NCBI RefSeq assembly: GCF_002138415.1
Contig: NZ_CP015612.1
Location: 3,326,001 to 3,390,000, forward strand
Direction of reading: 5' to 3'
Source: Stenotrophomonas maltophilia
GTDB lineage: Bacteria > Pseudomonadota > Gammaproteobacteria > Xanthomonadales > Xanthomonadaceae
Length of the DNA stretch: 64,000 nt
In this document: positions 12,592 through 61,680 of the stretch, one piece after another
Numbering within the stretch: the first letter of the stretch is position 1
How the letters are laid out: each line of letters starts with the position of its first letter
The notes under the pieces: model-generated
Databases searched by the model: none
Told to the model about the DNA's origin: nothing
What the model saw: only the letters and a program-made list of their open reading frames with translations
Made by a program: the position numbers and the translations under genes

Positions 12592-12694
12592 GGCGGGGTG
12601 GGTCCGGTTGAGGGGGGGCGCCGTAAATACGTCCATGTAGGCTCGGTCGCCGCATCCATGCGGCTCACGCCCCCTCAACCGGACCCACCCCGCC
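12592..12694 (+). repeat. Long nested palindrome, copy 1
   Basis: Outer arms of 24 bases (12592-12615 and 12671-12694) are perfectly complementary. They enclose a conserved core (ccgtaaatacgtccatgtag) and an inner hairpin GCCGCA/TGCGGC (12649-12664). Seven further copies are in this window. Confidence 0.85.
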
Positions 12695-12737
12695 TTCGAC
12701 AGTTGGCCGCGATCTGCCGGAACGATGCATTGCCCTG

Positions 12738-12785
12738 GTGGGTGTCGACCTTGGTCGACACGGTAGATCCACGCCATGCGTGGAT
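12738..12785 (+). repeat. Tandem short hairpin repeats
   Basis: Two adjacent palindromes: GTGTCGACC/GGTCGACAC headed by GGTGG (12738-12761), and a GTAG-headed ATCCACGC/GCGTGGAT hairpin (12763-12785). Both recur elsewhere in the window (12809, 55248; 34283, 61783). Confidence 0.65.
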
Positions 12786-12808
12786 GACTCATTCGATATC
12801 TGACAGCT

Positions 12809-12832
12809 GTGTCGACCAAGGTCGACACCTAC
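12809..12832 (-). repeat. GTAG-headed hairpin repeat (TCGACC type)
   Basis: On the minus strand it reads GTAGGTGTCGACCTTGGTCG, with 9-base complementary arms. It is the same subtype as the copy at 55248 and is inverted relative to the copy at 12738. Confidence 0.65.
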
Positions 12833-12856
12833 CAACAGCCGCGGAAATCTGTCAGA

Positions 12857-12958
12857 GGCGGGGCGGTGTCGGATTGCGGGGTGTCAGCCGCATGGATGCG
12901 GCTGCCAAGCCTACAAGGACGTACTCGCGGCGTCCCCGCACTCCGACACCGCCCCGCC
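12857..12958 (-). repeat. Long nested palindrome, copy 2
   Basis: Opposite orientation to copy 1, 162 bases away. The outer arms start GGCGGGGCGGTGTCGGA and are closed at 12934-12958 with very few mismatches. The inner hairpin is GCCGCA/TGCGGC. It precedes the end of the zinc-finger gene on the other strand. Confidence 0.85.
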
Positions 12959-13047
12959 ACCCCACGGAACGCCAGCTTTTGCTGTTGCGGTTGCCTTGGC
13001 TTGAAGGCTTCGGCAGGTGCAGGGCTGCAAGCCCTGCCGAACAACCT

Positions 13048-13314
13048 TTACCTCAACTGGCTGTCCTTGCTGCCACGGCGGTTGTAGCCGGCATGCGCCT
13101 GCTCTTCGTCGTCATGCGCCTGCTGGCACGCCACGCACAGCCGAACCCCAGGCACGGCCTGGCGCCGCGCCAACGGGATCGGCGCGTCGCATTCCTCACA
13201 GTGTTCCAGACCCGGGCCCTGCCGCAGCTGGCGCCGCGCGCGGGCGATCGCATCGTCGACGGTGGCGTCGATCTGGTCCTGGACCGCGCCGTCTCCCGCC
13301 CAACCGGTGGCCAT
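13048..13314 (-). CDS. DksA/TraR-type C4 zinc-finger protein
   Basis: An 88-residue protein with a helical N terminus (ATVDDAIARARRQL) and a C4 zinc finger, CEECDAPIPLARRQAVPGVR followed by LCVACQ, matching short DksA/TraR family members such as E. coli YbiI. These lack the long coiled coil of DksA and have no settled role. Start choice: GGAGG directly abuts the ATG at 13320, whereas the ATG at 13314 has a workable six-base spacing, so 13314 is preferred (two residues shorter). Confidence 0.83.
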   Translation of the reverse strand: MATGWAGDGAVQDQIDATVDDAIARARRQLRQGPGLEHCEECDAPIPLARRQAVPGVRLCVACQQAHDDEEQAHAGYNRRGSKDSQLR

Positions 13315-13382
13315 GGCCATCCTCCGCAGGTGTGTCGCCTGATATGGGGACGATACACCTCGGCAAAAAGACAGACCTTCAT

Positions 13383-13405
13383 GTAGAGCCGAGTCACGCT
13401 CGGCT
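13383..13405 (+). repeat. SMAG-type REP (GTAGAGCCGAG)
   Basis: GTAG followed by AGCCGAG/CTCGGCT arms around a short loop, in the 164-base gap between two leftward genes. It is followed at 13455-13481 by one arm of the taatcccctccgtcccc repeat that forms a full palindrome at 37933. Confidence 0.7.
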
Positions 13406-13484
13406 GCTCTTCAGGATGACGAACAGGACGTGGGCGGGTTCGATCAAGCCGATTACGACTTAATTCCCTCCGTCCCCTTTTTGC

Positions 13485-14042
13485 TTACCAGATCAGGTCG
13501 TCCGGCACCTGGAACTGCGCGTAATAGGCGTCGTCCTCGGCGTTGCCGGTGGAGATCTCGGCGGTCGAGCCCGGCTGGCCGTGATCGACGATGATCGCCT
13601 CCGGCGCGCGCTCACGCACCTTCTCGGCGGCGGCACGCGGCAGCAGGGCGTAGCCGTCGCCGTGGGCGACGATGACCAGCACGCCCACCGACAGCGCCTT
13701 GCGCAGCTTGGGGTCGATCAACAGGGTACGGATCGCCGCGCCGTCGCTGAAGCGGTACTCGTCGTCGCCCTTGTGGGGTACGGCGTGGACCGTGATGATC
13801 TGCCTGGCCTGGGCCTTCTGTTCAGCCTGCCTGGCCTGGGCATTGCGCTCGGCAGCCAGCGCGCGGTCGCGCTCGACTTTCTCGGCACGGGCCCGTTCAG
13901 CCTCGCGCTGCACGTCGGCCGAGGTCGATTCGGCCTTGCCCTGGCGGGCCTTGGCCTGCGCGCTCGCGGCAGCGCTGGCCTGCGACTTCTTGGCCAGGCC
14001 GGCCTTGAGCAATTGTTCCTGCAGCGCGTTGGGCTTTGCCAT
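13485..14042 (-). CDS. DUF2058 family protein
   Basis: A 185-residue protein. The N-terminal 80 residues are a highly charged Ala/Lys/Arg/Glu/Gln helix (probable coiled coil: REAERARAEKVERDRALAAE). The C-terminal about 100 residues form the DUF2058 (YaiL-like) domain with YRFSDGAAIRTLLID and VVHG/IVAHGDGYALLP-type strands. Starts MAKPNALQEQLLKAGL, the family's conserved N terminus. Function unknown; E. coli YaiL has been linked to nucleoprotein or polysome preparations. It diverges from the YgjP-type gene, with 62 bases between the starts. Confidence 0.88.
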   Translation of the reverse strand: MAKPNALQEQLLKAGLAKKSQASAAASAQAKARQGKAESTSADVQREAERARAEKVERDRALAAERNAQARQAEQKAQARQIITVHAVPHKGDDEYRFSDGAAIRTLLIDPKLRKALSVGVLVIVAHGDGYALLPRAAAEKVRERAPEAIIVDHGQPGSTAEISTGNAEDDAYYAQFQVPDDLIW

Positions 14043-14104
14043 GGTCGATGCGTACCGCGTGTAATCTTGGATGCTCCATTCTACCGACGCCCCGCCGCCC
14101 CTGC

Positions 14105-14605
14105 ATGGCAGTCCTGAAGTACCTCACCGGCTATCCCGAACCCCTGGTCGCCCAGGTCAGCGACCTGCTGGCGCAGGGCAAGCTCGGCCCCTGGCTGCAG
14201 CAGCGCTACCCCGACCCGCACGAGGTGCGCAGCGACCGCCAGCTGTACGACTACACGCAGGACCTGAAGGACCGCTACCTGCGCAAGTCGGTGCCGCTCA
14301 ACAAGGTCTGCTACGACAACACGCTGGAAGTGATCAAGCACGCACTGGGCACCCATACCGCCATCTCCCGCGTACACGGCGGCCGCCTCAAGGCCAGCCG
14401 CGAGATCCGTATCGCCACCGTGTTCCGTCAGGCACCGGCAGCGTTCCTGCGCATGATCGTGGTGCATGAACTGGCCCACCTGAAGGAAGCCGACCACAAC
14501 AAGGCCTTCTACCAGCTGTGCCAGCACATGGAGCCGGACTACCTGCAGCTGGAGTTCGATACCCGCCTGTACCTGACCGAGCTGGCCAACCGCGGCCAGC
14601 GCTGA
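14105..14605 (+). CDS. YgjP-like zinc metallopeptidase domain protein
   Basis: A 166-residue protein with the YgjP/WLM motif VVHELAHLKEADHNKAFY: HExxH supplies two zinc ligands and the downstream DHN...Y region the third. The length is close to E. coli YgjP (167). The ATG at 14105 (MAVLKYLTGYP) is preferred over an upstream in-frame codon at 14036, which overlaps the divergent gene. The physiological substrate is uncertain. It is followed 47 bases later by the pseudouridine-synthase-like gene. Confidence 0.85.
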   Translation: MAVLKYLTGYPEPLVAQVSDLLAQGKLGPWLQQRYPDPHEVRSDRQLYDYTQDLKDRYLRKSVPLNKVCYDNTLEVIKHALGTHTAISRVHGGRLKASREIRIATVFRQAPAAFLRMIVVHELAHLKEADHNKAFYQLCQHMEPDYLQLEFDTRLYLTELANRGQR

Positions 14606-14652
14606 CCGGCCGCAGCAGCTACACTGCGCGCCCCCTGCCTGACCTTTCCGCC

Positions 14653-15351
14653 ATGGAACCGATCCGTCTCGACAAACGCCTGTCCGCCCTGCTCGGCATC
14701 CCGCGCGGCGAAGCGCGACGCTACATCGAAGGCGGCTGGGTCACGGTCAACGGCGACGTGGTGGAACAGCCGCAGCGTCCGGTCGATGACAGCGCCGAGA
14801 TTGTCGTGGCCGAGCAGGCCAGCGATGAAAAGGCCGAGCGGGTCAGCATGCTGCTGCACAAGCCTGCCGGCGTTGCCGCTGAAACCCTGTGTGCGCTGGT
14901 CAGCAGTGACAGCCGCAGCGAACTTGATGCCAGCGACATCCGTCCGCTTCAGCGTCACTTCCACGGCCTGCAGCTGGCCGCCTCGCTTCCGGCCAGCGAC
15001 AGCGGCCTGGTGGTGGTCAGCCAGGACCCGGCCACGCTGGCCCATCTGCAGCGCAATCTGGGCCGCACCGAACAGGAGTACCTGATCGAAGTGGCCGAAG
15101 GCGGCCCCGAGCGCGGGCCGTGGCTGATGGCGCGGCTGCAGCAGGAATCCGGTGGTGCCAAGGTCAGCTGGCAGAGCGAGCAGCGCCTGCGCTTCGCCGG
15201 CAAGGGCCTGACGGCCAAGGGTCTGCGCGTGGCGGTTACCGCTGCCGGCCTGCAGGTGACGGCCGTGCGTCGGCTGCGTATTGGCCGCGTGGCACTGGGA
15301 CCGCTGCCTGCGGGGCAGTGGCGTTACCTGGGCAGCGACGAGCGGTTCTGA
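14653..15351 (+). CDS. RsuA/RluB-family pseudouridine synthase-like protein, catalytic Asp missing
   Basis: A 232-residue protein with an N-terminal S4 RNA-binding domain (RLDKRLSALLGIPRGEARRY, about 5-65), motif I of the family (LLHKPAGV, 67-74) and an overall RsuA/RluF-like layout. In the family the catalytic aspartate lies in G-R-L-D-x-D-[ST]-x-G-L. Here the aligned stretch is ASLPASDSGL (110-119), so Pro113 replaces the Asp and the Arg is also lost. The C-terminal motif GLTAKGLRVAV is intact-looking. The protein therefore may bind rRNA without isomerising uridine, or may use another residue. The start codon at 14653 gives the S4 domain its normal N terminus. Confidence 0.78.
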   Translation: MEPIRLDKRLSALLGIPRGEARRYIEGGWVTVNGDVVEQPQRPVDDSAEIVVAEQASDEKAERVSMLLHKPAGVAAETLCALVSSDSRSELDASDIRPLQRHFHGLQLAASLPASDSGLVVVSQDPATLAHLQRNLGRTEQEYLIEVAEGGPERGPWLMARLQQESGGAKVSWQSEQRLRFAGKGLTAKGLRVAVTAAGLQVTAVRRLRIGRVALGPLPAGQWRYLGSDERF

Positions 15352-15364
15352 CCCTTCAACCCCC

Positions 15365-15401
15365 GGGGTCGGATCCCTTTCCGCGGGAAAGGGCTCCGAC
15401 T
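15365..15401. repeat. GGGGTCGGATCC-type palindrome
   Basis: Imperfect inverted repeat (ggtcggatccctttcc / ggaaagggctccgac) just after the stop of the upstream gene. Same class as those at 37139, 42351 and 61717. Confidence 0.7.
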
Positions 15402-15448
15402 CTATCCACCCATGGCGTGCATCCACAGCAATGGGTCTGTCGGCTTTC

Positions 15449-15471
15449 ATCCACGCACGGCGTGGCTCTAC
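15449..15471 (-). repeat. GTAG-headed hairpin repeat
   Basis: On the minus strand GTAGAGCCACGCCGTGCGTG, an imperfect hairpin of the SMAG-like ATCCACGC subtype, ending ten bases before the start codon of the phospholipase D-type gene, so it would lie in that mRNA's leader. Confidence 0.55.
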
Positions 15472-15480
15472 CATCGGGGC

Positions 15481-17046
15481 ATGAGCCTGCCCAAGCCCCT
15501 GTGGCGACGCCTGCTGCGCGTCGCTGCAATCATCCTCGCCGCGCTGTTGCTGCTGGTCCTGTCCGGTCTGCTGCTGGCCGACCACCTCACGCCGCAGGCT
15601 CAGGGCGCACCCTCGCAGGTACTGCCACTGCAGCGGGCGCAGACCCGTATCGACCAGCAGATCGTGCCCTTGCAGGAGGCCCATCCGGGGCAGTCCGGCG
15701 TGGCCTTCCTCAGTGATGGCATGGATGCCTTCGCCGCACGCGCGATGATCACCACGCACGCAGGCCGCAGCCTGGACCTGCAGTACTACATCTGGCACGA
15801 CGACCTGATCGGTCACCTGATGGCCAAGGCACTGTACGACGCCGCCGAGCGCGGTGTGCGCGTGCGCATCCTGCTTGACGACATGAACGCCAAGGACAAG
15901 GACGCGCTGATGATGGCGCTCGATGCGCACCCGAACATCGAGATCCGCCTGTACAACCCGTTCCGCAACCGCAGCGGCATCGCGCGCACGCTGGAGCTGG
16001 TGCAGCGCGCTTTCAGCGTGAACCACCGCATGCACAACAAGAGCTGGATCGCCGATGGCCGCATCGCGATCGTTGGCGGCCGCAACATCGGCGAGGAGTA
16101 CTTCAGCGCACGCGACGATGTGAACTTCCAGGACCTGGATCTGGTGGTGGCCGGCCCCGCCGTGCAGCAGGCCAACCAGATCTTCGACGACTACTGGAAC
16201 AGCAGCGCGGCGATCCCGATCTCCGCGCTGGCCTCGTACAGCGATGAACAGCTGCGGCAACTCGTGCGGCAGTCGGACCTGGATGCCATGCATGCCAAGG
16301 CACAGCCCTACCTGCAGCGCGTGGCCGAATCACGCGCCCTGCAGCGACCCAGCCCGGAGCCGCTGCACTGGAGCGCGAACGTACGCATCGCTTCGGATCC
16401 GCCGATGAAGCACCGCGATGACGATCGCCGCGGCTGGCTGGTCAACACCCTCAGCGAGGAACTGCGCAGCACCCGCCGCAGTGCGCTGCTGATCTCGCCC
16501 TACTTCGTGCCCGGCAACGATGGGGTCGAGGCGCTGTCGGCGCTGGCCGCGCGCGGCGCGCAGGTGGGCGTGGTCACCAATTCGCTGGCCGCCAACGACG
16601 TGGCGGCGGTACACGGCGGCTACATGGGCTACCGGGTGCCGCTGCTGAAGGCCGGCGTGCAGCTGTACGAACTGAAGGCGCACGGCCAGCCGGATACCAG
16701 CCTGTTCGGCAGCAGCGGCGCCAGCCTGCACACCAAGGCGTTCGTGGTCGATGATCGCCGCGGCTTCGTCGGCTCGTTCAACCTCGACCCGCGCTCGGCC
16801 TACCTCAATACCGAGATGGGCGTGTTGTTCGACGACCCGGTGCTGGGGGCGCAGCTGCGCGATGAATACCTGCGCCTGGCCGGCCCGGAGCACAGCTGGT
16901 GGCTGGCGCTGGGGCGCAATGATGACCTGCGCTGGCTGGAGCACCAGCCACCGCCGCACTGGGTGGAGGCCGAACCCGGGGCCAGCCTGGGCAAGCGCTG
17001 GACCGCACGGGTGATCAGCTGGCTGCCGGTGGAATCGCAGCTGTAG
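15481..17046 (+). CDS. Phospholipase D-family cardiolipin synthase (ClsC-like)
   Basis: A 521-residue protein with an N-terminal membrane anchor (VAAIILAALLLLVLSGLLLA) and two HKD motifs. The first is HNKSWIADGRIAIVGGRNIG (about residue 182) and the second HTKAFVVDDRRGFVGSFNLD (about 420). The arrangement with QYYIWHDDLIGHLM and DDRRGWLV resembles ClsC rather than ClsA/B. Such enzymes make cardiolipin from phosphatidylglycerol with another phospholipid in the inner membrane. The ATG at 15481 puts the anchor at the very N terminus. With mprF in the same window it is a second phosphatidylglycerol-consuming enzyme. Confidence 0.85.
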   Translation: MSLPKPLWRRLLRVAAIILAALLLLVLSGLLLADHLTPQAQGAPSQVLPLQRAQTRIDQQIVPLQEAHPGQSGVAFLSDGMDAFAARAMITTHAGRSLDLQYYIWHDDLIGHLMAKALYDAAERGVRVRILLDDMNAKDKDALMMALDAHPNIEIRLYNPFRNRSGIARTLELVQRAFSVNHRMHNKSWIADGRIAIVGGRNIGEEYFSARDDVNFQDLDLVVAGPAVQQANQIFDDYWNSSAAIPISALASYSDEQLRQLVRQSDLDAMHAKAQPYLQRVAESRALQRPSPEPLHWSANVRIASDPPMKHRDDDRRGWLVNTLSEELRSTRRSALLISPYFVPGNDGVEALSALAARGAQVGVVTNSLAANDVAAVHGGYMGYRVPLLKAGVQLYELKAHGQPDTSLFGSSGASLHTKAFVVDDRRGFVGSFNLDPRSAYLNTEMGVLFDDPVLGAQLRDEYLRLAGPEHSWWLALGRNDDLRWLEHQPPPHWVEAEPGASLGKRWTARVISWLPVESQL

Positions 17047-17049
17047 CGC

Positions 17050-18117
17050 TCAGGGCGCTGGGTCCTGTCCGGCCTCATCCAGCGTTTCCACACTGCGCCC
17101 GTGCAGGCGCCGCCAGATCCAGCGCAGCGCATGCGGCGGCGCCGACGGCAGTTGTTCAAGCAGGGCCAGCATGCGGCTCTGGCTGGCGTGGCCATGGCGG
17201 CACAACAGACTGGCAGCGGCCGCAGCGCTGCCTAGACGCAGGCTGTCGGCCAGCGGGCCCTCGGCCTCCGGCACCAGCGCCTGATGCACCGGCTCGGGCA
17301 GCTCCCAGGCAGCCGCCACCCGTTGTGCCAGCGGCAACGACCACTGCTGGAGCAGCTGCAGGGCCAGCGCCGGCTCCACGGCTTCACCGCGTGCCTGGGC
17401 TTCCTGCAGCAGCTGGCGCATCACCAGCGCAGACCCCAGGCCCTGCACCAGTCCCAGCCACTGCGCGGCGAAGGCATCACCAAAGGTAACCGTGCGTGCG
17501 TGGTCTGCGGCCGCGCGCGAGGCCAGCAGTGCGTGCTCCCAGATGATCGTGCTGAACTGCGGAAACACCTCGCACTGCACCTGCATCACCGGCTGCACCA
17601 GCACCGCGCTGATGATCTGGCGCACGCCCTCGGTACCGACCAGGGTCACCGCCCGCTGCAGGCTTTCGACCGGGCGCTCATGGACCTTGTAGGCCGGGCT
17701 GTTGGCGATGCGCAGCAGGTTGCCGGTCAGCACCGGGTCCTGGCCGATGATCGCGGCCATCACCCGCGCGGAGGCGGCGTCGTCGTTGACGGTCTGGATC
17801 AGCTGCGGCAACAGCTGCGGACGCCGGGGCAGGTGCCGGGCCGCCCAGTCGCGGTCCTGCAGCGCGCGTGCCACCGCGTCCCCCAACGCCGGATCCTGTA
17901 CCGGCGTCGGCTCACCGGCCAGTCGTGGATACAACGCCAACGCGTGCAGGCCGCGCTGCAGATGCGCGGCGATCTCCGCAGACGGCAGGGCCTCACCCTG
18001 CAGGCTCGCGGCAGCTGCCGCCACTGCCTGTCGCGATACAGCCGCCAAGCGGGACGGCGCAGCCTCGGTCGAGCGTGCCAGCCAGCCACACAGTAGTCGC
18101 CACCAGGCCGGCCTCAT
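17050..18117 (-). CDS. HDOD domain protein
   Basis: A 355-residue protein. Residues about 95-290 form an HDOD domain, with LLPQLIQTVNDDAASARVMA and QDPVLTGNLLRIANSPAY as the characteristic opening, then ESLQRAVTLVGTEGVRQI. HDOD proteins are degenerate HD relatives used in c-di-GMP and two-component signalling. No GGDEF, EAL or receiver domain is attached, and the role cannot be specified. It converges with the phospholipase D gene three bases away and is divergent from leucine dehydrogenase, with 279 bases between the starts. Confidence 0.82.
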   Translation of the reverse strand: MRPAWWRLLCGWLARSTEAAPSRLAAVSRQAVAAAAASLQGEALPSAEIAAHLQRGLHALALYPRLAGEPTPVQDPALGDAVARALQDRDWAARHLPRRPQLLPQLIQTVNDDAASARVMAAIIGQDPVLTGNLLRIANSPAYKVHERPVESLQRAVTLVGTEGVRQIISAVLVQPVMQVQCEVFPQFSTIIWEHALLASRAAADHARTVTFGDAFAAQWLGLVQGLGSALVMRQLLQEAQARGEAVEPALALQLLQQWSLPLAQRVAAAWELPEPVHQALVPEAEGPLADSLRLGSAAAAASLLCRHGHASQSRMLALLEQLPSAPPHALRWIWRRLHGRSVETLDEAGQDPAP

Positions 18118-18396
18118 CGCCGCCCGCCCTGTCGTTGTGGAGCCCTTGCCGTCACTGACTGCCCTGCCTCTTCACACGAATCCGGCCACCCGCCGTCGTC
18201 GCAGCATCGGCCGCACTTTCATCTTCTTTAACCGGAAGGCCGCCGATATCGACGGCAACGGCCGGGGGAATGGACTAGAATGGCGCCGCGCGACCCGTCA
18301 CCCTGCACCGACGACGTCGCTTTTTTTGTTTTTGGGACCCTACCGTTCACTGGCCGTTCGCTGCAGTTCGCCGCTGTTCGCGCCATCGGAGACGCC

Positions 18397-24850: not shown

Positions 24851-24907
24851 TCGCTCTCCGCTCTTTCTGTTGATTCCGTGGTGGACGCGTACGGAAAGTG
24901 TCCACGG

Positions 24908-25007
24908 ACGCGCGGGTAGGTTGCGCAGGGGCGTAAGCGCCATGGATGGCGCGCCCGAGCCTATAAGGACGTATTCACGGCGCCCCCTGCGCAACCCACC
25001 CGCGCGG
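24908..25007 (-). repeat. Long nested palindrome, copy 3
   Basis: Outer arms of about 25 bases (from CGCGCGGGTAGGTTGCGCAG, closed at 24981-25006) with one or two mismatches. The inner hairpin is GCGCCA/TGGCGC (24937-24952) and the core (cctataaggacgtattcacgg) is shared with the other copies. It lies between the convergent lipoprotein 2 and AidB-like genes. Confidence 0.8.
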
Positions 25008-25067
25008 CCCGCTCACGACGCAGACTCCGCGCCGCCCACCACGAGGGGCTCCGCCGTTGGCCGCCTC

Positions 25068-40726: not shown

Positions 40727-40813
40727 GGGTTGTTCGGCAGGGCTGCGCCCTGCACCCGCCGAAGCTTCAAGCCAGGGCAACGGCAACAGCAAAAACTGGA
40801 ATTCCGTGGGCTG

Positions 40814-40913
40814 GTGGGGCGGTGTCGGAGTGCGGGGACGCCGCAAGTACGTCCTTGTAGGCTTGGCAGCCGCATCCATGCGGCTGACACCCCGCACTCC
40901 GACACCGCCCCAC
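40814..40913 (+). repeat. Long nested palindrome, copy 4
   Basis: Perfect 23-base outer arms (GTGGGGCGGTGTCGGAGTGC..., closed at 40891-40913) with inner hairpin GCCGCA/TGCGGC. It is preceded by the gttcggcagggctgcgcc hairpin (40732-40766) and followed by the ctgacagatttccg tail, as in other copies. Confidence 0.87.
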
Positions 40914-41000
40914 CTCTGACAGATTTCCGCGATCGGGTAGTTCCACGCCATGCGCGGATGAATCTCTGTCAGATATCGAAATTCAAACTGGGGTCGGATC

Positions 41001-42350
41001 CTGAGGTATCCCCACGTTTTCATGGCAGCAACGTCATTTGGTCCAAGGCCTTCCCTGGGGGCGAGCGCAGAAGATCAAGCCACCGTGCCGGTGGTCCTAG
41101 GGGCCAGCCTCTGACTAGTGCCTCGCGCCCAACGCGTGGGGTGGAATAGCGTTTGCGGGTGCTTTTGCTGGGCCAAAGCCAGTGGGCGATGTCTGCCGCT
41201 TCACACACCAAGCCGGCCAGCCAGCTGACGAAGGTGGCCAGCGTGCTGATCAGGAGCAGGATCTGCAGCCTGGGCCCTTGCCGGGTCAGACTGTCTTCCA
41301 GGGCATGCCCGTAGCGGTGTGATTTGAGATCTCGAAAGGCCAGTTCGATCTGCATCCGGCGGGCATAGAGGTTAACCAACTGTCGGGCGCTGGCCTGACT
41401 CAATTCGGGCGCGGCCACGATAAGCCAAGGCTCTCGCTCACGAGCGGCAGCCTTCAGGCTCACCGCCGAACGAGAGGCCTGCTGTGGAGTACGGCGGGTG
41501 GATTTTTTGCGGCCCTTACGCGTTTTGGAACACAGCACCACGCGGCAGGCCAGCGGCGAGCTGCGGTTGACCAGCGCTGGCGGGAGCTCGCGTGGCACGG
41601 TCCTGGCTCTGGCGTGCAGGGTGCGGCTGTCATGCCAGTGTTCCGGGTAGTTGGGGGCCTCCTGAAGTTTGATGCGCGTTGCTCCACGCAGACGCCCCAC
41701 CCAGTGCCAGCCCAGCGCAGAAACCGCGCGAAACCAAGGGGTCCGGAACCCAGCATCGGTCACCAGAATCGGAGTTACCCCTTCTGGAATGAGCTTGCGC
41801 AATTGCTGCAGAAAATGCCTCTCGGCCTCGGCGGAGCCTTGTTCTTTCCCGCGAACAATCATGTCCAGCAGCGTCAGCGTGCGGCCGCCCACGGGAACCG
41901 CCGCGCGAAGCAAGCACCAGCTTTTGTCCGGCTTCAAGTCAGACCAATCGATGAGGATGACCGGCTGTGGGCCACGTAGCAGCCAGCGAGCCATGTCGGC
42001 CTCAATGGCACCGCGTTCGCCATGTAGATGCCGATTTCCCAACAGGCGATCAAACGCCTTGAGGGGAGCTCGTACACGCTCGGCCCCAGGCCACGCTCGA
42101 GCGATATCGGTCAAGGTCAACCGTCGCCCAACGATCAGCGCTTGCACCGCGCTGAGAAGGGCCCGCATGCGCAGGACATGCATGGCCGATAGTGAGTTGG
42201 GCAAGCACTTCTGCAATACTTGGCTGGCGCGCATGACCGCATTCTTCTTTTGGTTTAGTCACCTTGAAGGCTGCGGCATGCGCGCACTTGTTTCCAGAGC
42301 CTGATACGTAAGCCATTGCTCTGTCTGAGGAAAACGTGGGGATACCTCAG
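41001..42350 (-). mobile_element. IS4-family (IS10-like) insertion sequence, complete
   Basis: 1350 bp bounded by near-perfect inverted repeats: left CTGAGGTATCCCCACGTTTT and its complement at the right end. The 9-bp direct repeats GGTCGGATC (40992-41000 and 42351-42359) are the target duplication. The CTGAG start, 9-bp duplication, single transposase gene and size all match IS10 (1329 bp, ends CTGAGAGATCCCC). It has landed inside a ggggtcggatcc palindrome. Intact ends and gene suggest recent arrival. Confidence 0.93.
41020..42234 (-). CDS. IS10-like transposase
   Basis: A 404-residue IS4-family DDE transposase, colinear with the 402-residue IS10 protein (shared blocks such as DRLLGNRHLH and the GW-W stretch before RGA). 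Catalytic residues are Asp96 (LIDWSD), Asp160 (LVTDAGF) and Glu297 within the family motif Y-2-R-3-E-6-K (YARRMQIELAFRDLK, 290-304). No internal stop or frameshift, so it should be functional. Cut-and-paste transposition via hairpin intermediates is the known IS10 mechanism. Confidence 0.95.
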   Translation of the reverse strand: MRASQVLQKCLPNSLSAMHVLRMRALLSAVQALIVGRRLTLTDIARAWPGAERVRAPLKAFDRLLGNRHLHGERGAIEADMARWLLRGPQPVILIDWSDLKPDKSWCLLRAAVPVGGRTLTLLDMIVRGKEQGSAEAERHFLQQLRKLIPEGVTPILVTDAGFRTPWFRAVSALGWHWVGRLRGATRIKLQEAPNYPEHWHDSRTLHARARTVPRELPPALVNRSSPLACRVVLCSKTRKGRKKSTRRTPQQASRSAVSLKAAAREREPWLIVAAPELSQASARQLVNLYARRMQIELAFRDLKSHRYGHALEDSLTRQGPRLQILLLISTLATFVSWLAGLVCEAADIAHWLWPSKSTRKRYSTPRVGREALVRGWPLGPPARWLDLLRSPPGKALDQMTLLP

Positions 42351-42389
42351 GGTCGGATCCGTTTTCCGAAGGAAAACGGATCCGACCCC
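42351..42389. repeat. Remainder of the ggggtcggatcc palindrome split by the IS10-like element
   Basis: Removing the IS and one copy of its 9-bp duplication restores a perfect palindrome with 19-base arms (40989-41000 joined to 42360-42389; centre gaa). Same class as 15365, 37139 and 61717. Confidence 0.8.
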
Positions 42390-42514
42390 ATGCCATTCCG
42401 ACAGATCGCGGAAAACTGTCGAAGGCGGGGTGGGTTCGGTTGCGGGAGTGTCCGCGGCATGGATGCCGCGGCCAAGCCCCCAAAGGTGAAGTGACCCCCG
42501 AGACTTGGACGGTT

Positions 42515-43348
42515 TCAGGCGGCCGATTGGGCCTGCTCCCGGTACTGTACCGGGCTCAGGCCTTTCAGTTTCAGTTTGATGCGCTCTTCGTTGTAGTACT
42601 GGATGTATTCCACCAGCCCGGCCTCCAGACTCTCGATGCTGTCAAAGCTGTTCAGGTAAAAGAACTCCGACTTCAGCGTCCCAAAGAAGCTCTCCATCGC
42701 TGCATTGTCCAGGCAGTTGCCACGCCGGGACATGCTTTGTTTCAAAGAGTGCTTTTCCAGCATGTGCCGGTAGTTTTCATGCTGGTACTGCCAGCCCTGG
42801 TCGGAGTGGATCATGGGGCGCTCATCCGGCGAAAGCTTCTTGATGGCCTCCTCCAGCATCTGACCTACCAGATCGAACACGGGCTGGCGCTTGATCTGAT
42901 AAGCCACGATTTCGCCGTTGTAGAGGTCCATGATCGGCGACAGATACAGCTTCATGCCTTGTACCTTGAACTCGGTCACGTCGGTCACCCACTTCTGGTT
43001 GGGGCGCTCGGCGTGGAATTGGCGATTGAGGTCATTGCCAACCACAACATTGGCGGCCCCCTTGAAGGACCGGTAGCGCTTCACGCGTACCCGTGATTTC
43101 AGGCCCATCTTCCCCATCAGGCGCTGTACCCGCTTGTGATTGGTCCGATGGCCCTGGTTGGCCAATTCCAGCGTCACCGTGCGATAGCCATAACGCCCTT
43201 GGCTTTGATCGTAGATTGCACGGATGCGCTCGCACAGGGCTGCCTCATCCTGATCCGGATGGGCCAGGACATGGTTCTGGTAATAGAACGTACTGCGTGA
43301 CAGCTCTGCCGCTTCGAGCAGAAGCGACAACGTATGAACCTGCCTCAA
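42515..43348 (-). CDS. IS3-family transposase OrfB (catalytic part)
   Basis: A 277-residue DDE integrase-fold domain: Asp123 (KWVTDVTEF), Asp183 (IHSDQGWQY) and Glu219 (NAAMESFFGTLKSE), giving the D-59-D-35-E spacing of the IS3 family. An HTH_21-like region is at the N terminus (ELSRSTFYYQ). The annotated start is a TTG overlapping the orfA stop; expression is more likely as an OrfAB fusion after a -1 shift at 43411-43417, since the frame is open back to that point. Confidence 0.93.
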   Translation of the reverse strand: MRQVHTLSLLLEAAELSRSTFYYQNHVLAHPDQDEAALCERIRAIYDQSQGRYGYRTVTLELANQGHRTNHKRVQRLMGKMGLKSRVRVKRYRSFKGAANVVVGNDLNRQFHAERPNQKWVTDVTEFKVQGMKLYLSPIMDLYNGEIVAYQIKRQPVFDLVGQMLEEAIKKLSPDERPMIHSDQGWQYQHENYRHMLEKHSLKQSMSRRGNCLDNAAMESFFGTLKSEFFYLNSFDSIESLEAGLVEYIQYYNEERIKLKLKGLSPVQYREQAQSAA

Positions 43349-43896
43349 TCCTTGGATGGCTTGCGCTTTGCGTCCTGCGCCGCCTGCTCTTCCCGGATCA
43401 AGGCATCGAGTTTTTTTAGGTAGTCGGTCTCCGCACGCAGATAGGCGACTTCCTTGAGCAGCTCATCGCGGCTCATTTCCTCAGGTGGCTTGGACGAACG
43501 GGTCTTTTTCATCGGCTTTCGGGGCAGCGGCGGAGGCGGTGCCAACGCTTGGGCACCGCCTTGAGCATACAGGCGCCGCCATCGCCCCACCGCGCCGGCA
43601 TCGCCAATCTGGAAGTAGGTGGTGGCCTCCCGCCCGGACAGGCCGTCCCGGCTCATCTTCTCCAGGACCGCCAGCTTGAAGGCGAGGTCATAGGACCGGG
43701 GCTGGCGGCGAAACCCACGCCAACCGTGCAGCCGATAGGTCGCTACCCAGCGCCTGACCGTGGAGAACTCCAGACCGTGGCGACGGGCAATGGCTTTGAC
43801 CGATGTGGAGGTCTTGCAGGCCTCTTTGGCGACCTGCAGTTTGAAACGCGCGTCGTATTTGTTCATGTATCCCTCGGGGTTGGATCTGGCGTCCAA
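43345..43896 (-). CDS. IS3-family OrfA (DNA-binding part)
   Basis: A 183-residue protein with two helix-turn-helix regions (SVKAIARRHGLEFSTVRRWVATYR, given as SVKAIARRHG then TVRRWVATYR, about 33-56; and GLSGREATTYFQIGDAGAVGR region, about 92-112) and a C-terminal leucine-zipper-like helix (EEMSRDELLKEVAYLRAETD). This is the IS150-type OrfA, which binds the terminal repeats. The A7 slippery run lies at codons LKK near residue 160. It overlaps orfB by four bases. Confidence 0.92.
   Translation of the reverse strand: MDARSNPEGYMNKYDARFKLQVAKEACKTSTSVKAIARRHGLEFSTVRRWVATYRLHGWRGFRRQPRSYDLAFKLAVLEKMSRDGLSGREATTYFQIGDAGAVGRWRRLYAQGGAQALAPPPPLPRKPMKKTRSSKPPEEMSRDELLKEVAYLRAETDYLKKLDALIREEQAAQDAKRKPSKD
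43411..43417 (-). other. Candidate programmed -1 frameshift site in the IS3-family element
   Basis: Minus-strand CTA-AAA-AAA-CTC contains the heptamer A-AAA-AAA in the right register for tandem slippage. After a -1 shift the frame reads through without stops into orfB (…RKAQAIQGLRQVHT). IS3-family elements are known to make their transposase this way. Confidence 0.75.
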
Positions 43897-44032
43897 CTCC
43901 CGGGGGTCACTTCAAGGACGGGTTTACGGCGTCTCCCGCAACCGGACCCACCCCGCCTACCCACGGATAGCCAGCTTTTGCAGTTGACGTTGATTCGGCA
44001 GGTGCAGGGCTGCAAGCCCTGCCGAACACCCC

Positions 44033-55100: not shown

Positions 55101-55103
55101 GTT

Positions 55104-55207
55104 GGGCGGGGCGGTGTCGGGTTGCGGGGACGCCGTAAACCCGTCCTTGGGGGCTTGGCCGCGGCATCCATGCCGCGGACACCCCGCAACCCGACACCGC
55201 CCCACCC
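55104..55207 (+). repeat. Long nested palindrome, copy 6
   Basis: Perfect outer arms GGGGCGGTGTCGGGTTGCGG... (55108-55129) and complement (55182-55203). The core reads cgccgtaaacccgtcctt and the inner hairpin is GCCGCGGCA/TGCCGCGG. Followed by the ctgacagttttccg tail. Confidence 0.88.
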
Positions 55208-55247
55208 CTGACAGTTTTCCGATGACGGTGAGCGAACAGCAAACCCG

Positions 55248-55272
55248 GTAGGTGTCGACCTTGGTCGACACC
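55248..55272 (+). repeat. GTAG-headed hairpin repeat (TCGACC type)
   Basis: GTAGGTGTCGACCTTGGTCG then ACACC; arms of 9-10 bases. Between palindromes 6 and 7. Confidence 0.7.
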
Positions 55273-55355
55273 TGAGCGAAGCGACCGGCGTTTGATTTTG
55301 ATTTTGCTTTTCTTTTTTCTTCTCCGTGGCTGGACAGCACACGGAAACTGTCAGA

Positions 55356-55459
55356 GGCCGGGCGGGTGGGTTGCGCAGGACCGTTGGCGCCATGGATGGC
55401 GCCATCGAGCCCCCACGGACGGGTTTACGGCGTGTCCTGCGCAATCCACCCGCCCGGCC
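55356..55459 (-). repeat. Long nested palindrome, copy 7
   Basis: Opposite orientation to copy 6, forming a facing pair. Outer arms GGCCGGGCGGGTGGGTTGCG... with one mismatch to the complement at 55435-55459; inner hairpin GGCGCCA/TGGCGCC. Together with copy 6 it fills the 606-base gap (55007-55612), in which I see no gene. Confidence 0.85.
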
Positions 55460-55612
55460 AAGCGCTGCTTTTCCTTTTGCCTTCAGCGACCAACCCACAG
55501 CCACGAGGGGCTGCGCCGTTGGCTGGAACAACCTGTTACCCATACGGGGCATGTCCCCGTCACAGCCGCGTGCGATGCTGACCACCTGATCCCTGCCAGC
55601 GAGAACGCCCGC

Positions 55613-56476: not shown

Positions 56477-56554
56477 ACATCGCGTGTTGCACACATCCGA
56501 GGGTGTATCCCTGCACCCGGCGTTGACGCTACAGTCACCCGCTGATCACTGAAA

Positions 56555-56570
56555 TGTGACATAAATCACA
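56555..56570 (+). promoter_or_regulatory. CRP/Clp-type binding site upstream of aqpZ
   Basis: TGTGA-CATAAA-TCACA is a perfect match to the CRP core (TGTGA, 6, TCACA), which the xanthomonad regulator Clp also recognises. It ends 27 bases before the aqpZ start codon, near the likely promoter or leader, so activation or repression cannot be told. Confidence 0.65.
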
Positions 56571-56597
56571 CTTTCGACCGTCAAAGGAGTGCAACAC

Positions 56598-57317
56598 ATG
56601 AGCATGGGTAAACGCTTGTCCGCCGAGTTCCTCGGCACGTTCTGGCTGGTTCTGGGTGGCTGTGGCAGTGCGGTGCTGGCCGCCAAGTTCGGCGGTGACG
56701 GCAATCCGCTGGGTATCGGTTTCCTCGGCGTGGCGCTGGCCTTCGGCCTGACCGTGGTGACCGGCGCCTATGCGTTCGGCCACATCTCCGGCGCGCACTT
56801 CAACCCGGCGGTCAGTGTCGGCCTGTGGGCCGGCGGTCGTTTCCCGACCAAGGACCTGATCCCGTACATCATCGCCCAGGTCGCCGGCGGCCTGCTGGCC
56901 GGCTTCATCCTGCTGCAGATTGCCTCCGGCGCCAGTGGCTTCGCCATCGATGGCAGCCAGGCCGGCGCGTTCGCCAGCAATGGCTATGGCGCGCTGTCGC
57001 CCGGCGGCTACAGCGTGGCGGCCGCCTTCCTGTGCGAAGTGGTGCTGACGGCGGTGTTCCTGATCGTGATCATGGGCTCCACCCACGGCAAGGCACCGGC
57101 CGGGTTCGCGCCCTTGGCGATCGGCCTGTCGCTGACCCTGATCCACCTGATCAGCATTCCGGTCACCAACACCTCGGTGAACCCGGCCCGCTCCACCGCC
57201 GTCGCGTTCTTCGCCGGCAGCGGTGCGGTCAGCCAGCTGTGGCTGTTCTGGGTCGCCCCCCTTCTGGGCGGCGCGATCGGCGGCATCATCTACAAGTGGA
57301 TCGGCAACGACCGCTGA
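56598..57317 (+). CDS. aqpZ: Aquaporin Z
   Basis: A 239-residue MIP-family channel with six transmembrane segments and both NPA loops: [11 protein letters not shown] (about residue 60) and [11 protein letters not shown] (about 190), the latter with the R expected for the selectivity filter. It resembles AqpZ (water-specific) rather than GlpF, as the post-NPA residues are Ser-Thr. AAAGGAG eight bases upstream fixes the ATG at 56598. A consensus CRP/Clp site lies upstream and a hairpin follows the stop. Confidence 0.93.
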
Positions 57318-57329
57318 GGCCTGTGCGGT

Positions 57330-57358
57330 CCATTGCGGCCGACCTTCGGCCGCAATGG
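57330..57358 (+). terminator. Hairpin after aqpZ
   Basis: Twelve-base perfect arms CCATTGCGGCCG / CGGCCGCAATGG with a five-base loop; only a weak T-run follows. Likely the aqpZ transcript end. Confidence 0.5.
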
Positions 57359-57514
57359 TTACGCTTGTAACCGCAATTTGTGCGATCGCTCACGTTCCGT
57401 TAAGGTTGAGTTGACCGTCCGTGCACATGCCGGTCGGGGTGGCATCCGGGGATGGGATGCCAACGCTGCCCGTCCATCAGGCGGCGCCAAACGACACACC
57501 ACCTTGGGGGATGC

Positions 57515-57976
57515 ATGAAGTTCGCGCCTGTAGTGTTGTCGAGCCTGCTGTTCGCCGTGGCCCAGGCCGCCGCTGCACAGGCTCCCACCGAATGTCCTTC
57601 GCTGCCGGCCAGCAGTGGCCTGCAATGGCAGCAATTGGTGCAGACGGACTTTCTGATCTGTCGCGCCAGTACCGGAGATGGCCGTGAAGTACTGAGCCTG
57701 ATGCTCAGTGCACGTGACCCGTCCATTCCGTTGAACCGCTCGCTGCGCCAGGAAAAGGGCAGCTTCGGCGGTGAATCACTCTACTGGTACCAGCCCGACC
57801 TCGGTGGCCAGCAGCCTCCGGGCTATGCCGAACGCCGGATCAGCGTGGTCAAGCTCGACAAAGGGCGTTACGCGCAGATTTCGCTGTATCCGGACAGCGC
57901 GCAGGAACTGGGCTCGCTGCAGCAGTTGGCGCAGGGCATGAGCCTGACGCCATCGGCCGTGGCCGCCGGGCGCTGA
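57515..57976 (+). CDS. Exported hypothetical protein
   Basis: A 153-residue protein with a signal peptide (MKFAPVVLSSLLFAVAQAAA, cleavage near AAAQA) and a mature domain of about 130 residues with two cysteines (TECPSL and FLICRAS) that may form a disulfide. No family recognised. GGGGG lies just upstream of the ATG at 57515. A partly matching CRP-like sequence is at 57379-57394, about 120 bases upstream. Confidence 0.7.
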   Translation: MKFAPVVLSSLLFAVAQAAAAQAPTECPSLPASSGLQWQQLVQTDFLICRASTGDGREVLSLMLSARDPSIPLNRSLRQEKGSFGGESLYWYQPDLGGQQPPGYAERRISVVKLDKGRYAQISLYPDSAQELGSLQQLAQGMSLTPSAVAAGR

Positions 57977-58030
57977 CCATGACGGGGATGCCTGCCTGGC
58001 AGCATCCCCGCAATGCGGCCCGATCACAGG

Positions 58031-58100
58031 GTAGTGCCGGCCGCTGGCCGGCACCTCGATCCGCCGTGACCGCAGGCAGTTGCCGGCCAGCGGCCGGCAC
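58031..58100. repeat. Facing pair of SMAG REP elements
   Basis: GTAGTGCCGGCCGCTGGCCG with GCAC (58031-58054) and its inverted partner GTTGCCGGCCAGCGGCCGGC with AC (58079-58100), 24 bases apart. This is the archetypal S. maltophilia SMAG sequence as a dimer, between convergent genes. Confidence 0.88.
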
Positions 58101-58104
58101 CGCC

Positions 58105-58956
58105 TCAGAACTTGCCTTCCTGGAAGTCGACGAAGGCCTGCATCAGTTCCTGCCGTGTGTTCATCACGAACGGGCCATGCCGCATCACCGGCTCGCGCAA
58201 CGGACGGCCAGCCACCAGGATCAACCGCGCGCCATCGCTGCCGGCCGAGAGGTGCAGCTGTTCGCCGCCGCCCAGCACCGCCAGTTCCTGGCGCGCCACG
58301 TCACGCGCAGCGTCCTGCTCACCTACGGTCACCGCACCTTCGAACACATAGGCAAACGCGTTGTGCCCTTCCGGCAGCGCATAGGTCCACGCGCGATCCG
58401 GCGCCAGCGTGATATCGAGGTAGAGCGGATCGGTGGCCGGCTGCACGATCGGCCCGTGGGTGCCGTCGACCGTGCCGGCAATCACCTTCACTTCCACACC
58501 GGCATCCGGCTGCACCACGGGAATGCGCTCGGGCGCGAACTCCTGGTACTTCGGCTCGGTCATCTTCTCCTTCGCCGGCAGGTTCACCCACAGCTGGAAA
58601 CCGCGCATCTGCCCGCTTTCCTGCTCGGGCATCTCCGAGTGCACCAGGCCACGACCAGCGGTCATCCACTGCACGCTGCCCGGGGTCAGCAGGCCTTCGT
58701 TGCCGTGGTTGTCGCGATGCCGCATGCGCCCGTCGAGCATGTAGGTGACGGTCTCGAAACCGCGATGCGGATGCTCCGGGAAGCCTGCGATGTAGTCCTC
58801 GGCGCGGTCGGTACCGAACTCATCAAGCAGCAGGAACGGATCCAGGTCCGGCAGCGTCGGGCCGCCGATGACGCGGGTCAGGCGCACGCCGGCACCGTCG
58901 GAGGTGGGCATGCCACGGATGGTGCGCAGTACGCGGACCGGTTCGGGAAAGCTCAT
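58105..58956 (-). CDS. Pirin family protein (copy 2)
   Basis: A 283-residue bicupin with the full pirin metal set: HPHRGFETVTYMLDG (about 63), RHRDNHGNEG, and MTAGRGLVHSEMP (about 100). The C-terminal cupin (HNAFAYVFEGAVTVG) and VMRHGPFVMNTRQEL are typical of YhhW-like pirins. AGGAG six bases upstream supports the ATG at 58956. Divergent from cstA, with 215 bases between starts. Confidence 0.9.
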   Translation of the reverse strand: MSFPEPVRVLRTIRGMPTSDGAGVRLTRVIGGPTLPDLDPFLLLDEFGTDRAEDYIAGFPEHPHRGFETVTYMLDGRMRHRDNHGNEGLLTPGSVQWMTAGRGLVHSEMPEQESGQMRGFQLWVNLPAKEKMTEPKYQEFAPERIPVVQPDAGVEVKVIAGTVDGTHGPIVQPATDPLYLDITLAPDRAWTYALPEGHNAFAYVFEGAVTVGEQDAARDVARQELAVLGGGEQLHLSAGSDGARLILVAGRPLREPVMRHGPFVMNTRQELMQAFVDFQEGKF

Positions 58957-59171
58957 GGCGACTCCTGTTGGATGGATGCCACTGAAGATGGACGCCACAC
59001 GACCGTAGGCCAATGGATGGCTCCGCAACCGATTGTTCCATCCCTGATGTTCGCTGCATGTCAGCGCAGCCGCCGTACGACCAAAGTACTACCGCCGATT
59101 CGTCCTGTGCCAATTGACCCTGTCGTGGGCAAGCAGGACTCTTTGTCTGTCTTTCCGGGAGAGAGCACCTC

Positions 59172-61253
59172 ATGAAAGGGTTTTCCAAACTGGGCTGGGC
59201 GGTACTCGCTCTGCTCGGCGCGTTCTGTCTGGGCACCGTGGCGCTGCGCCGCGGCGAACACATCAATGCCCTGTGGATCGTCGTCGCGGCGGTGTCGCTG
59301 TACCTCGTCGCCTATCGCTTCTACAGCCTGTTCATCGCCAACAAGGTGATGCAGCTGGATCCGACCCGGGCCACCCCGGCGGTGATCAACAACGATGGCC
59401 TGGACTACGTTCCGACCAACAAGCACGTGCTGTTCGGCCACCACTTCGCCGCCATTGCCGGCGCCGGCCCGCTGGTCGGCCCGGTGCTGGCTGCGCAGAT
59501 GGGCTACCTGCCCGGACTGCTGTGGCTGGTGGTGGGCGTGGTGCTGGCTGGTGCGGTGCAGGACTTCATGGTCCTGTTCCTGTCCAGTCGGCGCAATGGC
59601 CGCTCGCTGGGTGACCTGGTAAGAGAAGAGATGGGCCAGGTGCCTGGAACGATCGCGTTGTTCGGCGCGTTCCTGATCATGATCATCATCCTGGCAGTGC
59701 TGGCGATGGTGGTGGTCAAGGCGCTGGCCGAAAGCCCGTGGGGCATGTTCACGGTGATCGCGACGATGCCCATCGCGATCCTGATGGGCGTGTACATGCG
59801 CTACATCCGCCCCGGCAAGATCGGCGAGATCTCGGTGGTTGGCCTGATCCTGCTGCTGGCCGCGATCTGGTACGGCGGCAAGGTCGCCGCCGACCCGGTC
59901 TGGGGCCCGGCCTTCACCTTCACCGGCACCCAGATCACCTGGATGCTGATCGGCTACGGCTTCGTCGCCTCGGTGCTGCCGGTGTGGCTGCTGCTGGCCC
60001 CGCGTGATTACCTGTCGACCTTCCTCAAGATCGGCACCATCATCGCGCTGGCCATCGGCATCCTGGTGGTGATGCCGGAACTGAAGATGCCGGCGTTGAC
60101 CCAGTTCGCTGCCAGCGGCGACGGCCCGGTGTGGAAGGGCGGCATGTTCCCGTTCCTGTTCATCACCATCGCCTGTGGCGCGGTCTCCGGTTTCCATGCA
60201 CTGATTTCCTCCGGCACCACGCCGAAGCTGCTCGCCAATGAAGCGCACATGCGTTACATCGGCTACGGCGGCATGCTGATGGAATCGTTCGTCGCGGTGA
60301 TGGCGCTGGTGGCGGCCTCGATCATCGATCCGGGCATCTACTTCGCGATGAACAGCCCGGCGGCGGTGATCGGTGCCGATGCGGCCTCGGCCGCGCACTA
60401 CATCACCAACACCTGGGGCTTCACCATCACCCCCGAGCAGCTGACCGCGACCGCGGCGGCCATTGGTGAACCCACCATCCTGCATCGTGCAGGTGGCGCG
60501 CCAACACTGGCGGTAGGCATCGCGCAGATCCTGCACCAGGCCATCCCCAGCAGCAGCGACGCGATGATGGCGTTCTGGTACCACTTCGCGATCCTGTTCG
60601 AAGCACTGTTCATCCTGACCGCGGTGGACGCCGGTACCCGCGCCGGTCGCTTCATGCTGCAGGACCTGCTGGGCAACTTCGTGCCGGCCCTGAAGAAGAC
60701 CGAGTCGTGGACCGCCAACATCATCGGTACCGCCGGCTGCGTGGCACTGTGGGGCTACCTGCTCTACACCGGCGTGGTCGATCCGTTCGGCGGCATCCAG
60801 ACCTTGTGGCCGCTGTTCGGCATCTCCAACCAGATGCTGGCCGGTATCGCGCTGATGCTGGGCACGGTGGTGCTGTTCAAGATGAAGCGTGACCGCTATG
60901 CGTGGGTGACCGCAGTACCGGCCGTGTGGCTGCTGATCTGCACCACCTACGCCGGCTTCATCAAGATCTTCGACAGCAACCCGGCGCAGGGCTTCCTGGC
61001 GCAGGCGCACAAGTTCCAGGCCGCGCTCGCCAGCGACACCATCACTGCACCGGCCAAGTCGGTGGCGCAGATGAAGCAGATCGTGGTCAACGCCTACGTC
61101 AACACCGGCCTGACCGCCCTGTTCCTGCTGGTGGTGGGCGCGGTGCTGGTGTATTCGATCAAGACCATCCTGGCCGCACGCCGCAACCCGCAGCGTACCG
61201 ACCGTGAGACCCCGTACGTGGCGCTGAAGCCGCATGAAATGGTGGATCTGTGA
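59172..61253 (+). CDS. cstA: Carbon starvation protein CstA (peptide/pyruvate transporter)
   Basis: A 693-residue inner-membrane protein with about 16-18 transmembrane segments. The CstA signatures are [20 protein letters not shown] (about 75), [20 protein letters not shown] (about 97) and [14 protein letters not shown] (about 545). CstA is known in E. coli as a carbon-starvation-induced transporter for peptides and pyruvate. The start follows GGGAGAGAG. It is coupled to the downstream YbdD gene by TGATG. Upstream (59075-59089) is an imperfect GTAC/GTAC motif of unknown role. Confidence 0.93.
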
Positions 61254-61477
61254 TGAGCACGCAACTGGTTCCCGCCGGCCAGTATCAGGCGCACCGCCGC
61301 ATCTGGCGGCGCCTGGTTCAGACCGCACGACTGTGCTGTGGCATTCCTGATTACGACAACTACGTCCGGCACATGCTGGAAAAGCATCCGGACCAGGAGC
61401 CGATGGACTACAAGACGTTCTTCCGCGAGCGCCAGGAAGCGCGTTACGGCGGGCGCAACGGTGGACGCTGCTGTTGA
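61253..61477 (+). CDS. YbdD/YjiX family small protein
   Basis: A 74-residue protein with the family motif [20 protein letters not shown] (about 28-47) and [18 protein letters not shown]. YbdD/YjiX proteins always follow cstA-type genes and are needed for efficient uptake by some of these transporters. The ATG at 61253 overlaps the cstA TGA by one base. It ends in GRCC. Confidence 0.9.
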
Positions 61478-61578
61478 GGGTTGGGTGCCGGGCTTGCAGC
61501 CCGGCGCCCGCAGAAGCAACTGCAACTGCAACAGCAACAGCAACAGCCAAAGCGTCGGCTCTGGTTTTCCGTGAATTT

Positions 61579-61680
61579 GGCGGGGTGGTGTCGGATGGCG
61601 GGGACGCCGTAAACCCGTCCTTGGGGGCTTGGCCGCGGCATCCATGCCGCGGACACCCCGCCATCCGACACCACCCCACC
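61579..61680 (+). repeat. Long nested palindrome, copy 8
   Basis: Outer arms about 24 bases with GGGTGGTGTCGGATGGCGGG complementary to 61656-61679; core cgccgtaaacccgtcctt; inner hairpin CCGCGGCA/TGCCGCGG. Same orientation as copies 1, 4 and 6. Confidence 0.87.

Follow-up and report, generated by a model that had tools for sequence, protein, structure and literature searches.

The window analysed here is a stretch of 64,000 bases (positions 3326001-3390000) of the single contig, 4,668,743 bases long, of the Stenotrophomonas maltophilia genome. It carries eight copies of an intergenic palindromic element of about 100 bp, which is probably a dispersed RNA element that binds the regulator RsmA/CsrA and is kin to the Rfam families TwoAYGGAY and Ysr224. 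On the strand opposite its CCGTAAA motif, the loops of two hairpins both read CANGGANG, i.e. C-A-N-G-G-A-N-G. A sequence-only reading of the window had reported eight copies of a structured intergenic element distinct from the SMAG repeats. All eight are present, seven intact (at 12591, 12855, 24904, 40812, 55104, 55354 and 61578) and one split by an insertion sequence (IS; 42424/43915), and the distinction from SMAG and other repetitive extragenic palindrome (REP) units is supported.

The search of the source genome with a covariance model, which that reading had proposed, showed that the window holds a small part of a large family. The main model was built from 24 intact copies of the source genome. 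With the best 150 candidates scored, it gave at least 136 matches at E<=0.01, of which 127 score above 80 bits. Six interrupted copies bring the number to 142, and sixteen further copies that carry a loop module and lie outside the main-model list bring it to about 158. The core pattern alone has 29 matches in the genome, against 0 for the same pattern reversed. The copies form subfamilies: the arms are at least 95% identical to those of some neighbour in 61/127 copies, and the median best arm identity to a relative elsewhere in the genome is 0.94. Because the copies are related, the p-values given below for stem mismatches are rough.

The consensus fold is a three-way junction made of an outer stem of 25-30 bp and two short hairpins, the first of which carries a 5-nt bulge. 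The outer stem and the inner hairpin had been recognised from the letters of the window. The second co-varying hairpin and the CANGGANG loops of the other strand had been missed; what was then called a conserved core is itself the second hairpin, whose stem letters co-vary (CCC..GGG, TAC..GTA and TCC..GGA around GTCCNT). The proposal that the arms co-vary, so that structure rather than sequence is kept, was borne out by double changes in 24 of 40 pairs among the 24 copies of the source genome. They occur in 36 of 40 pairs among 30 copies from 28 other genomes of 24 families, chosen as best matches of their genomes. In this class-wide set, whose alignment was fitted to the structure, 97.4% of the cells are paired, versus 35.7-41.0% when the partners are slid. 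By one of five measures, further pair types in the same alignment are no higher than in shuffles (95 versus 90.1, reached by 79/500 shuffles). The predicted folds are very stable, with a z of -8.4 for the copy at 12591.

The loops follow the published RsmE/CsrA rule, namely an ANGGAN hexaloop with a variable N; the ligand obtained by systematic evolution of ligands by exponential enrichment (SELEX) is RUACARGGAUGU, and the CsrB repeat is CAGGA(U/A/C)G (PMC7652899). CANGGANG is found in both hairpins of 123 of the 127 intact copies of the source genome, each of which thus has an ANGGAN hexaloop with C-G closure in at least two hairpins, and ANGGA is found in both hairpins of 125. At the N position of hairpin 1, the letters are T in 62, G in 44, A in 15 and C in 6 copies, while the A before it is present in 127/127 and the following G, G and A in 126, 127 and 127. 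In congeneric species and further genera of the order, CANGGANG occurs twice in 29/32 rows (exceptions L077, L071_1255 and L277_1235); two more rows, given on the wrong strand, were left out of the count. From another family of the order, seventy copies with 70 different left arms were read in two genomes (G030 and G040, with 39 and 44 matches, respectively). Their hairpin 2 reads C-A-N-GGA-T/A-G in 70/70, N being G in 31, T in 27, A in 9 and C in 3. Hairpin 1 fits in 67/70: four rows were scored outside the rule, among them L198, which was excluded only through an incomplete read and fits by eye, and two exceptions are one base shorter and CsrB-repeat-like, with CAGGATG and CAGGACG. On contigs of Pseudidiomarina, Aliidiomarina, Ectothiorhodospira and Saccharospirillum, which belong to other orders, 11/11 copies fit, six of them fetched with a pattern that fixes the loops and five found independently by the model alone. 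Class-wide, 60/60 hairpins fit CANGGANG. The genome has a single csrA gene, whose product carries, by count, the L4 and R44 marked in PMC7652899.

If a stem decays while only one of its strands is used as RNA, G-U mismatches are expected to exceed A-C mismatches on that strand. The outer stems of the source genome show 75 G.T against 13 A.C on the CANGGANG strand. The commonest mismatch position contributes 30:1, and without it the ratio is 45:12 (p 1.3e-5). The second family shows the same tolerance, with 51:10 (p 1e-7), or 33 versus 9 when scored by copy, with 28 ties. The same asymmetry could arise if the DNA were used single-stranded or if deamination of transcribed DNA were biased towards one strand.

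The placement of the copies was determined with a codon-usage gene caller run in this analysis, without use of the annotation. Enrichment at convergent gene junctions, proposed from the window, was found when it was tested. The 101 gaps bearing the element comprise 35 convergent, 51 tandem and 15 divergent ones. Among 108 gaps without it that measure 150 bp or more, drawn from the fetched regions and the window, the corresponding numbers are 11, 48 and 49 (convergent 35/101 against 11/108, Fisher p=2.2e-5). Convergent placement is a tendency and is not exclusive. In the window itself, the element is present in all four convergent gaps that reach 150 bp, and our gene calls agree that four of the five loci are convergent, the one at 55.1 kb being tandem. 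The oppositely oriented pairs noted earlier turned out to be more regular than claimed. The CANGGANG strands point apart in 50/50 pairs within 500 bp in the source genome and in 9/9 in the second family; a probability computed for this orientation assumes that orientations are independent. The exception, outside the source genome, is locus L421 with two copies in the same orientation. The first 40 pairs comprise 18 between convergent, 18 between tandem and 4 between divergent genes. The partners have unlike arms: 0/36 intact pairs are more than 75% identical where 6.2 would be expected, which led us to reject local duplication as the origin of the pairs.

The element is spread widely and unevenly. 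With a broader model, R3, matches were found in 75 of 299 genomes and 23 of 85 genera of the order, and in 68 of 369 genomes and 60 of 271 genera of the Gammaproteobacteria. Copy numbers from these surveys are lower bounds, as the best 13 (order) or 10 (class) candidates per genome were scored, 10 in the case of Ysr224 and 7 in that of TwoAYGGAY. Five listed genomes (4.8-5.5 Mb) of one genus of the same family as the source have no R3 match. Among congeners, for which the best 96 candidates per genome were scored and copy numbers are again lower bounds, the numbers are patchy, from 0 to at least 96.

The window has no match in Rfam at the gathering score, and matches at a permissive E-value were mostly to microRNA models scored on the stem alone, which were rejected. 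Among the closest known systems is TwoAYGGAY (RF01731, clan CL00106), described as a probable RNA of the human gut, gammaproteobacteria and Clostridiales (Weinberg 2010, PMC2864571) and predicted to bind CsrA (PMC4333381). TwoAYGGAY and the present element share, on the same strand, two GGA-hexaloop hairpins, an outer stem and the joining sequence caAG...CGG. Both also occur in several copies in each of several genomes, with close pairs pointing apart. The TwoAYGGAY model matches 14/369 genomes, seven of them with at least six or seven copies, and 4/4 pairs within 500 bp among the matches listed point apart. On the CANGGANG strand it gives the Aliidiomarina copy a score of 34.8 bits, and a copy found by our model in L426 passes its cut-off (44.0 versus 43 bits). 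In the source genome it has 0 matches at E<=1e-5 among the best 7 candidates, and none at E<=10 in positions 12400-13100 of the window. AYGGAY, the loop sequence that defines the family, stands in both loops of only 66/127 source copies (hairpin 2 in 125, hairpin 1 in 67). The 5-nt bulge in hairpin 1 is a feature of the present element, and the available portions of PMC4333381 and PMC2864571 do not term TwoAYGGAY a dispersed repeat. The element is probably a dispersed variant of the TwoAYGGAY kind. The Yersinia RNA Ysr224 (RF02770) has, on the opposite strand, a core almost like that of the element, and the complement of its consensus gives two CANGGANG loops; its best score at an element copy is 35.1 bits against a cut-off of 70, short of membership. 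Ysr224 is listed among the most prevalent bacterial small RNAs (PMC9029176) and is not named in the main text of PMC4376681.

Other known systems are more distant. The RNAs RsmX/Y/Z and CsrB/C also have several ANGGA hairpins, and a module found in 22 element copies usually adds two CAGGA loops to those of the element. RsmX/Y/Z and CsrB/C each come from a single gene or a handful of genes in a genome, transcribed from promoters of their own, whereas the present element is dispersed in about 158 copies and lacks a conserved promoter. The Xanthomonas campestris RNA RsmU is derived from a 3' untranslated region, sequesters RsmA and binds it in vitro and in vivo, and strains without it were wild-type-like in the tests described (PMC7694677). 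It is likened to the element, by description and not by sequence, as a precedent for an RsmA-binding RNA from such a region, and differs in being one locus. The SMAG/GTAG REPs, the terminal inverted repeat (TIR) families and the ERIC and YPAL miniature inverted-repeat transposable elements are likewise short intergenic palindromes, paired and near gene ends (PMC3733652), ERIC and YPAL again being likened by description and not by sequence. REPs differ in their size of 20-40 bp and their GTAG or CGTC tag, the GTAG ones being tied to Y1 transposases (PMC3733652). In the literature searched, from which subscription papers were mostly absent, no dispersed CsrA-binding repeat was found.

Taken together, these features suggest that each copy would encode a structured RNA, or one module of such an RNA, made from the CANGGANG strand. 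We infer that the element is transcribed, that its RNA binds RsmA and that it has a decoy effect. The outer stem would hold the three-way junction and thereby the two hairpins, whose C-G-closed A-N-G-G-A-N hexaloops have the shape bound by RsmA/CsrA, and both loops of one junction could suit a single RsmA dimer. Transcription might come by read-through from neighbouring genes or from an unseen promoter, and the RNA might dock RsmA either in cis, as part of its own carrier transcript, or in trans, where it would be a decoy provided that it is abundant. We prefer a scheme in which read-through, whichever side it comes from, would run into a site oriented for activity, so that a divergent pair would serve both directions. 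A broader proposal, which we regard as possible and put forward tentatively, is that the spread of an RNA element has supplied genomes of Gammaproteobacteria with as many as about 150 RsmA/CsrA docking sites in divergent, unlike-armed pairs. These would form a distributed sponge, tunable by copy number, that couples leaky transcription ends to the Csr/Rsm regulon.

Several observations speak against an RsmA-binding RNA made from the CANGGANG strand. The nearest gene end is mostly antisense to this strand: 132 copies have a gene no more than 400 nt away on the CCGTAAA side, and in 87 of these the gene ends there in the same sense as CCGTAAA, at a median distance of 81 nt. No conserved promoter was seen upstream of the CANGGANG strand, where conservation ends about 25 nt out, and terminator-like signals favour neither strand (11 and 10 of 80, shuffled 5). 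Ysr224, which is element-like, is drawn on the opposite strand in Rfam. The G-U excess is absent from the 30 class-wide copies (6 versus 4), and the two short hairpins of the source copies give only 5 versus 3 G.T to A.C. The best predicted fold of the copy at 12855 lacks hairpin 1. Hairpin 2 is stable, whereas the SELEX ligands are mostly weak-stemmed (PMC7652899), and GGA loops are not the whole of RsmU binding, since binding to RsmA persisted, though with a smaller complex, when all four of its GGA motifs were changed (PMC7694677). The presence of csrA does not discriminate, because the gene is near universal (39/41). The sampling of loops leans towards those that fit, because the models were trained on copies with CANGGANG-type loops and the class-wide copies were chosen as best matches. 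In our judgement, however, a single loop letter would add no more than a few bits to scores of 80-120, and a free N beside a fixed A-GGA was not imposed by the model.

Three other explanations were weighed. Were the CCGTAAA strand the active RNA, as in the annotation of Ysr224, the [N]UCC[N]U loops could pair with GGA or Shine-Dalgarno-like sequences. This strand is matched by the Ysr224 model and is in sense with the gene that ends nearby in most copies; we nevertheless consider it very improbable, as the stem mismatches on it are A.C and not G.U, both mismatch ratios pointing the wrong way, and as TwoAYGGAY matches the other strand. It is also improbable that the element acts at 3' ends in the manner of REPs and bacterial interspersed mosaic elements, as an RNA stabiliser or a bidirectional transcription end without a specific protein. 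Convergent enrichment with divergent depletion, the tight spacing past the stop codon and the very stable folds would all be in line with such a role, but a stabiliser could do without fixed GGA loops, divergent gaps make up 15 of the 101, a consistent U-tract is lacking, and in the relatives L398 and L405 the element lies, by eye, beyond a canonical terminator. The roles suggested in the sequence-only reading, as insulator, 3' stabiliser or nucleoid-protein target, are not favoured as primary ones; the fit of the loops to the RsmA/CsrA rule had not been considered there.

Rather unlikely, finally, is a miniature mobile DNA element whose hairpins would be used by a transposase as single-stranded or cruciform DNA, with CANGGANG marking the recognised DNA strand and an accidental fit to RsmA. 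Near-identical copies within subfamilies and the patchy copy numbers of congeners are consistent with it, the strand-specific G-T tolerance also fits single-stranded DNA, and other mobile DNA enters the hairpin loops. On the other hand, the element does not flank any of the four Y1 transposase genes, Y1 being the one transposase type tested, a target duplication of the element was not recognised, and the free N inside a fixed A-GGA, a feature read by RsmA, is not explained by DNA recognition. On the earlier suggestion that the element is mobilised, the evidence is divided: subfamilies and patchy distribution agree with it, whereas no Y1 transposase is linked to it and the clearest element-less sites (L388 and L390) look like deletions.

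Were the RsmA/CsrA-binding RNA element confirmed, junk-like intergenic palindromes would carry global-regulator binding sites in many Gammaproteobacteria, and the RsmA wiring of Xanthomonadales would have an extra layer. The orphan Rfam families TwoAYGGAY and Ysr224 would join one dispersed superfamily, and the element would be a case of a repeat amplifying a protein-binding RNA module.

The history of individual sites was followed at the 61.6-kb locus, which was compared across 30 loci including that of the window. The model finds the element in eight of them (L385, L386, L387, L391, L393, L396, L398 and L405); the one in L386 is a second copy beside a truncated first copy. L388 and L390 lack it in a manner that fits deletion. 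The remaining loci are without an intact copy, apart from L394 and L395, which have modules inside the loops. A near-identical module of about 85 nt replaces the hairpin 2 loop of 22 copies with differing arms (L250-L271); it forms three hairpins, of which two usually have CAGGA loops. A different module, about 100 nt long, follows CATGG or CAGGG within the loop of hairpin 1 (L394 and L395; L260 and L266), and L395 has modules in both loops. The hairpin 1 loop of three copies of the source genome (one in the window, the others on G000:C1 near 203665 and 1682856) contains an identical insert. In the window this insert, at 42487-43914, is of the IS3 type and has, by eye, an AGG target duplication; the insertion is loop-specific.

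The four Y1 (IS200-like) transposases (L460-L463) each have different SMAG-like or TIR repeats as flanks. Assignment of the element to the self-complementary TIR family described in S. maltophilia (PMC3733652) was not supported, the Y1 genes being flanked by SMAG-type or GGGGTCAGATCC/GGGACGGAGG repeats. At the G030 and G040 loci (e.g. L207 and L211), many copies are preceded, by eye, by tandem repeats of GTGACGC or GGTGAGAC, and the outer stem there seems to be extended as AAGCGTCTCGCGG/CCGCGACACGCTT.

In the window, with strands given as that of CANGGANG, copy 1 was placed by sequence and model at 12591-12696 (minus). Its loops with their closing pairs, located from the sequence and column counts, are CATGGACG at 12630-12637 for hairpin 1 and CATGGATG at 12653-12660 for hairpin 2, both on the minus strand. 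Its divergent partner, copy 2, lies at 12855-12959 (plus), and copy 3, at 24904-25010 (plus), is single. Copies 6 (55104-55208, minus, also supported by its fold) and 7 (55354-55460, plus) form another divergent pair, the hairpin 1 loop of copy 7 being CACGGACG, with N = C. All these copies were placed by sequence and model, as was copy 4 (40812-40916, minus), which points away from copy 5 at a distance of 1.5 kb. Copy 5 is on the plus strand and was delimited by eye. Its first part (42424-42486) ends in the hairpin 1 loop with the target copy AGG, and its second part (43915-43957) follows the IS3-type insertion sequence, which is on the minus strand and was recognised from gene calls and its rve, HTH_21 and HTH_Tnp_1 domains. 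The interval between copies 4 and 5 (40917-42423) is about 1.5 kb without a called gene, and at its end there is an inverted repeat of the GGGTCGGATCCG kind. Copy 8 (61578-61682, minus; sequence, model and gene calls) is downstream of cstA, at 59172-61253, and of a short open reading frame that follows it. The cstA gene is a classic CsrA target in E. coli.

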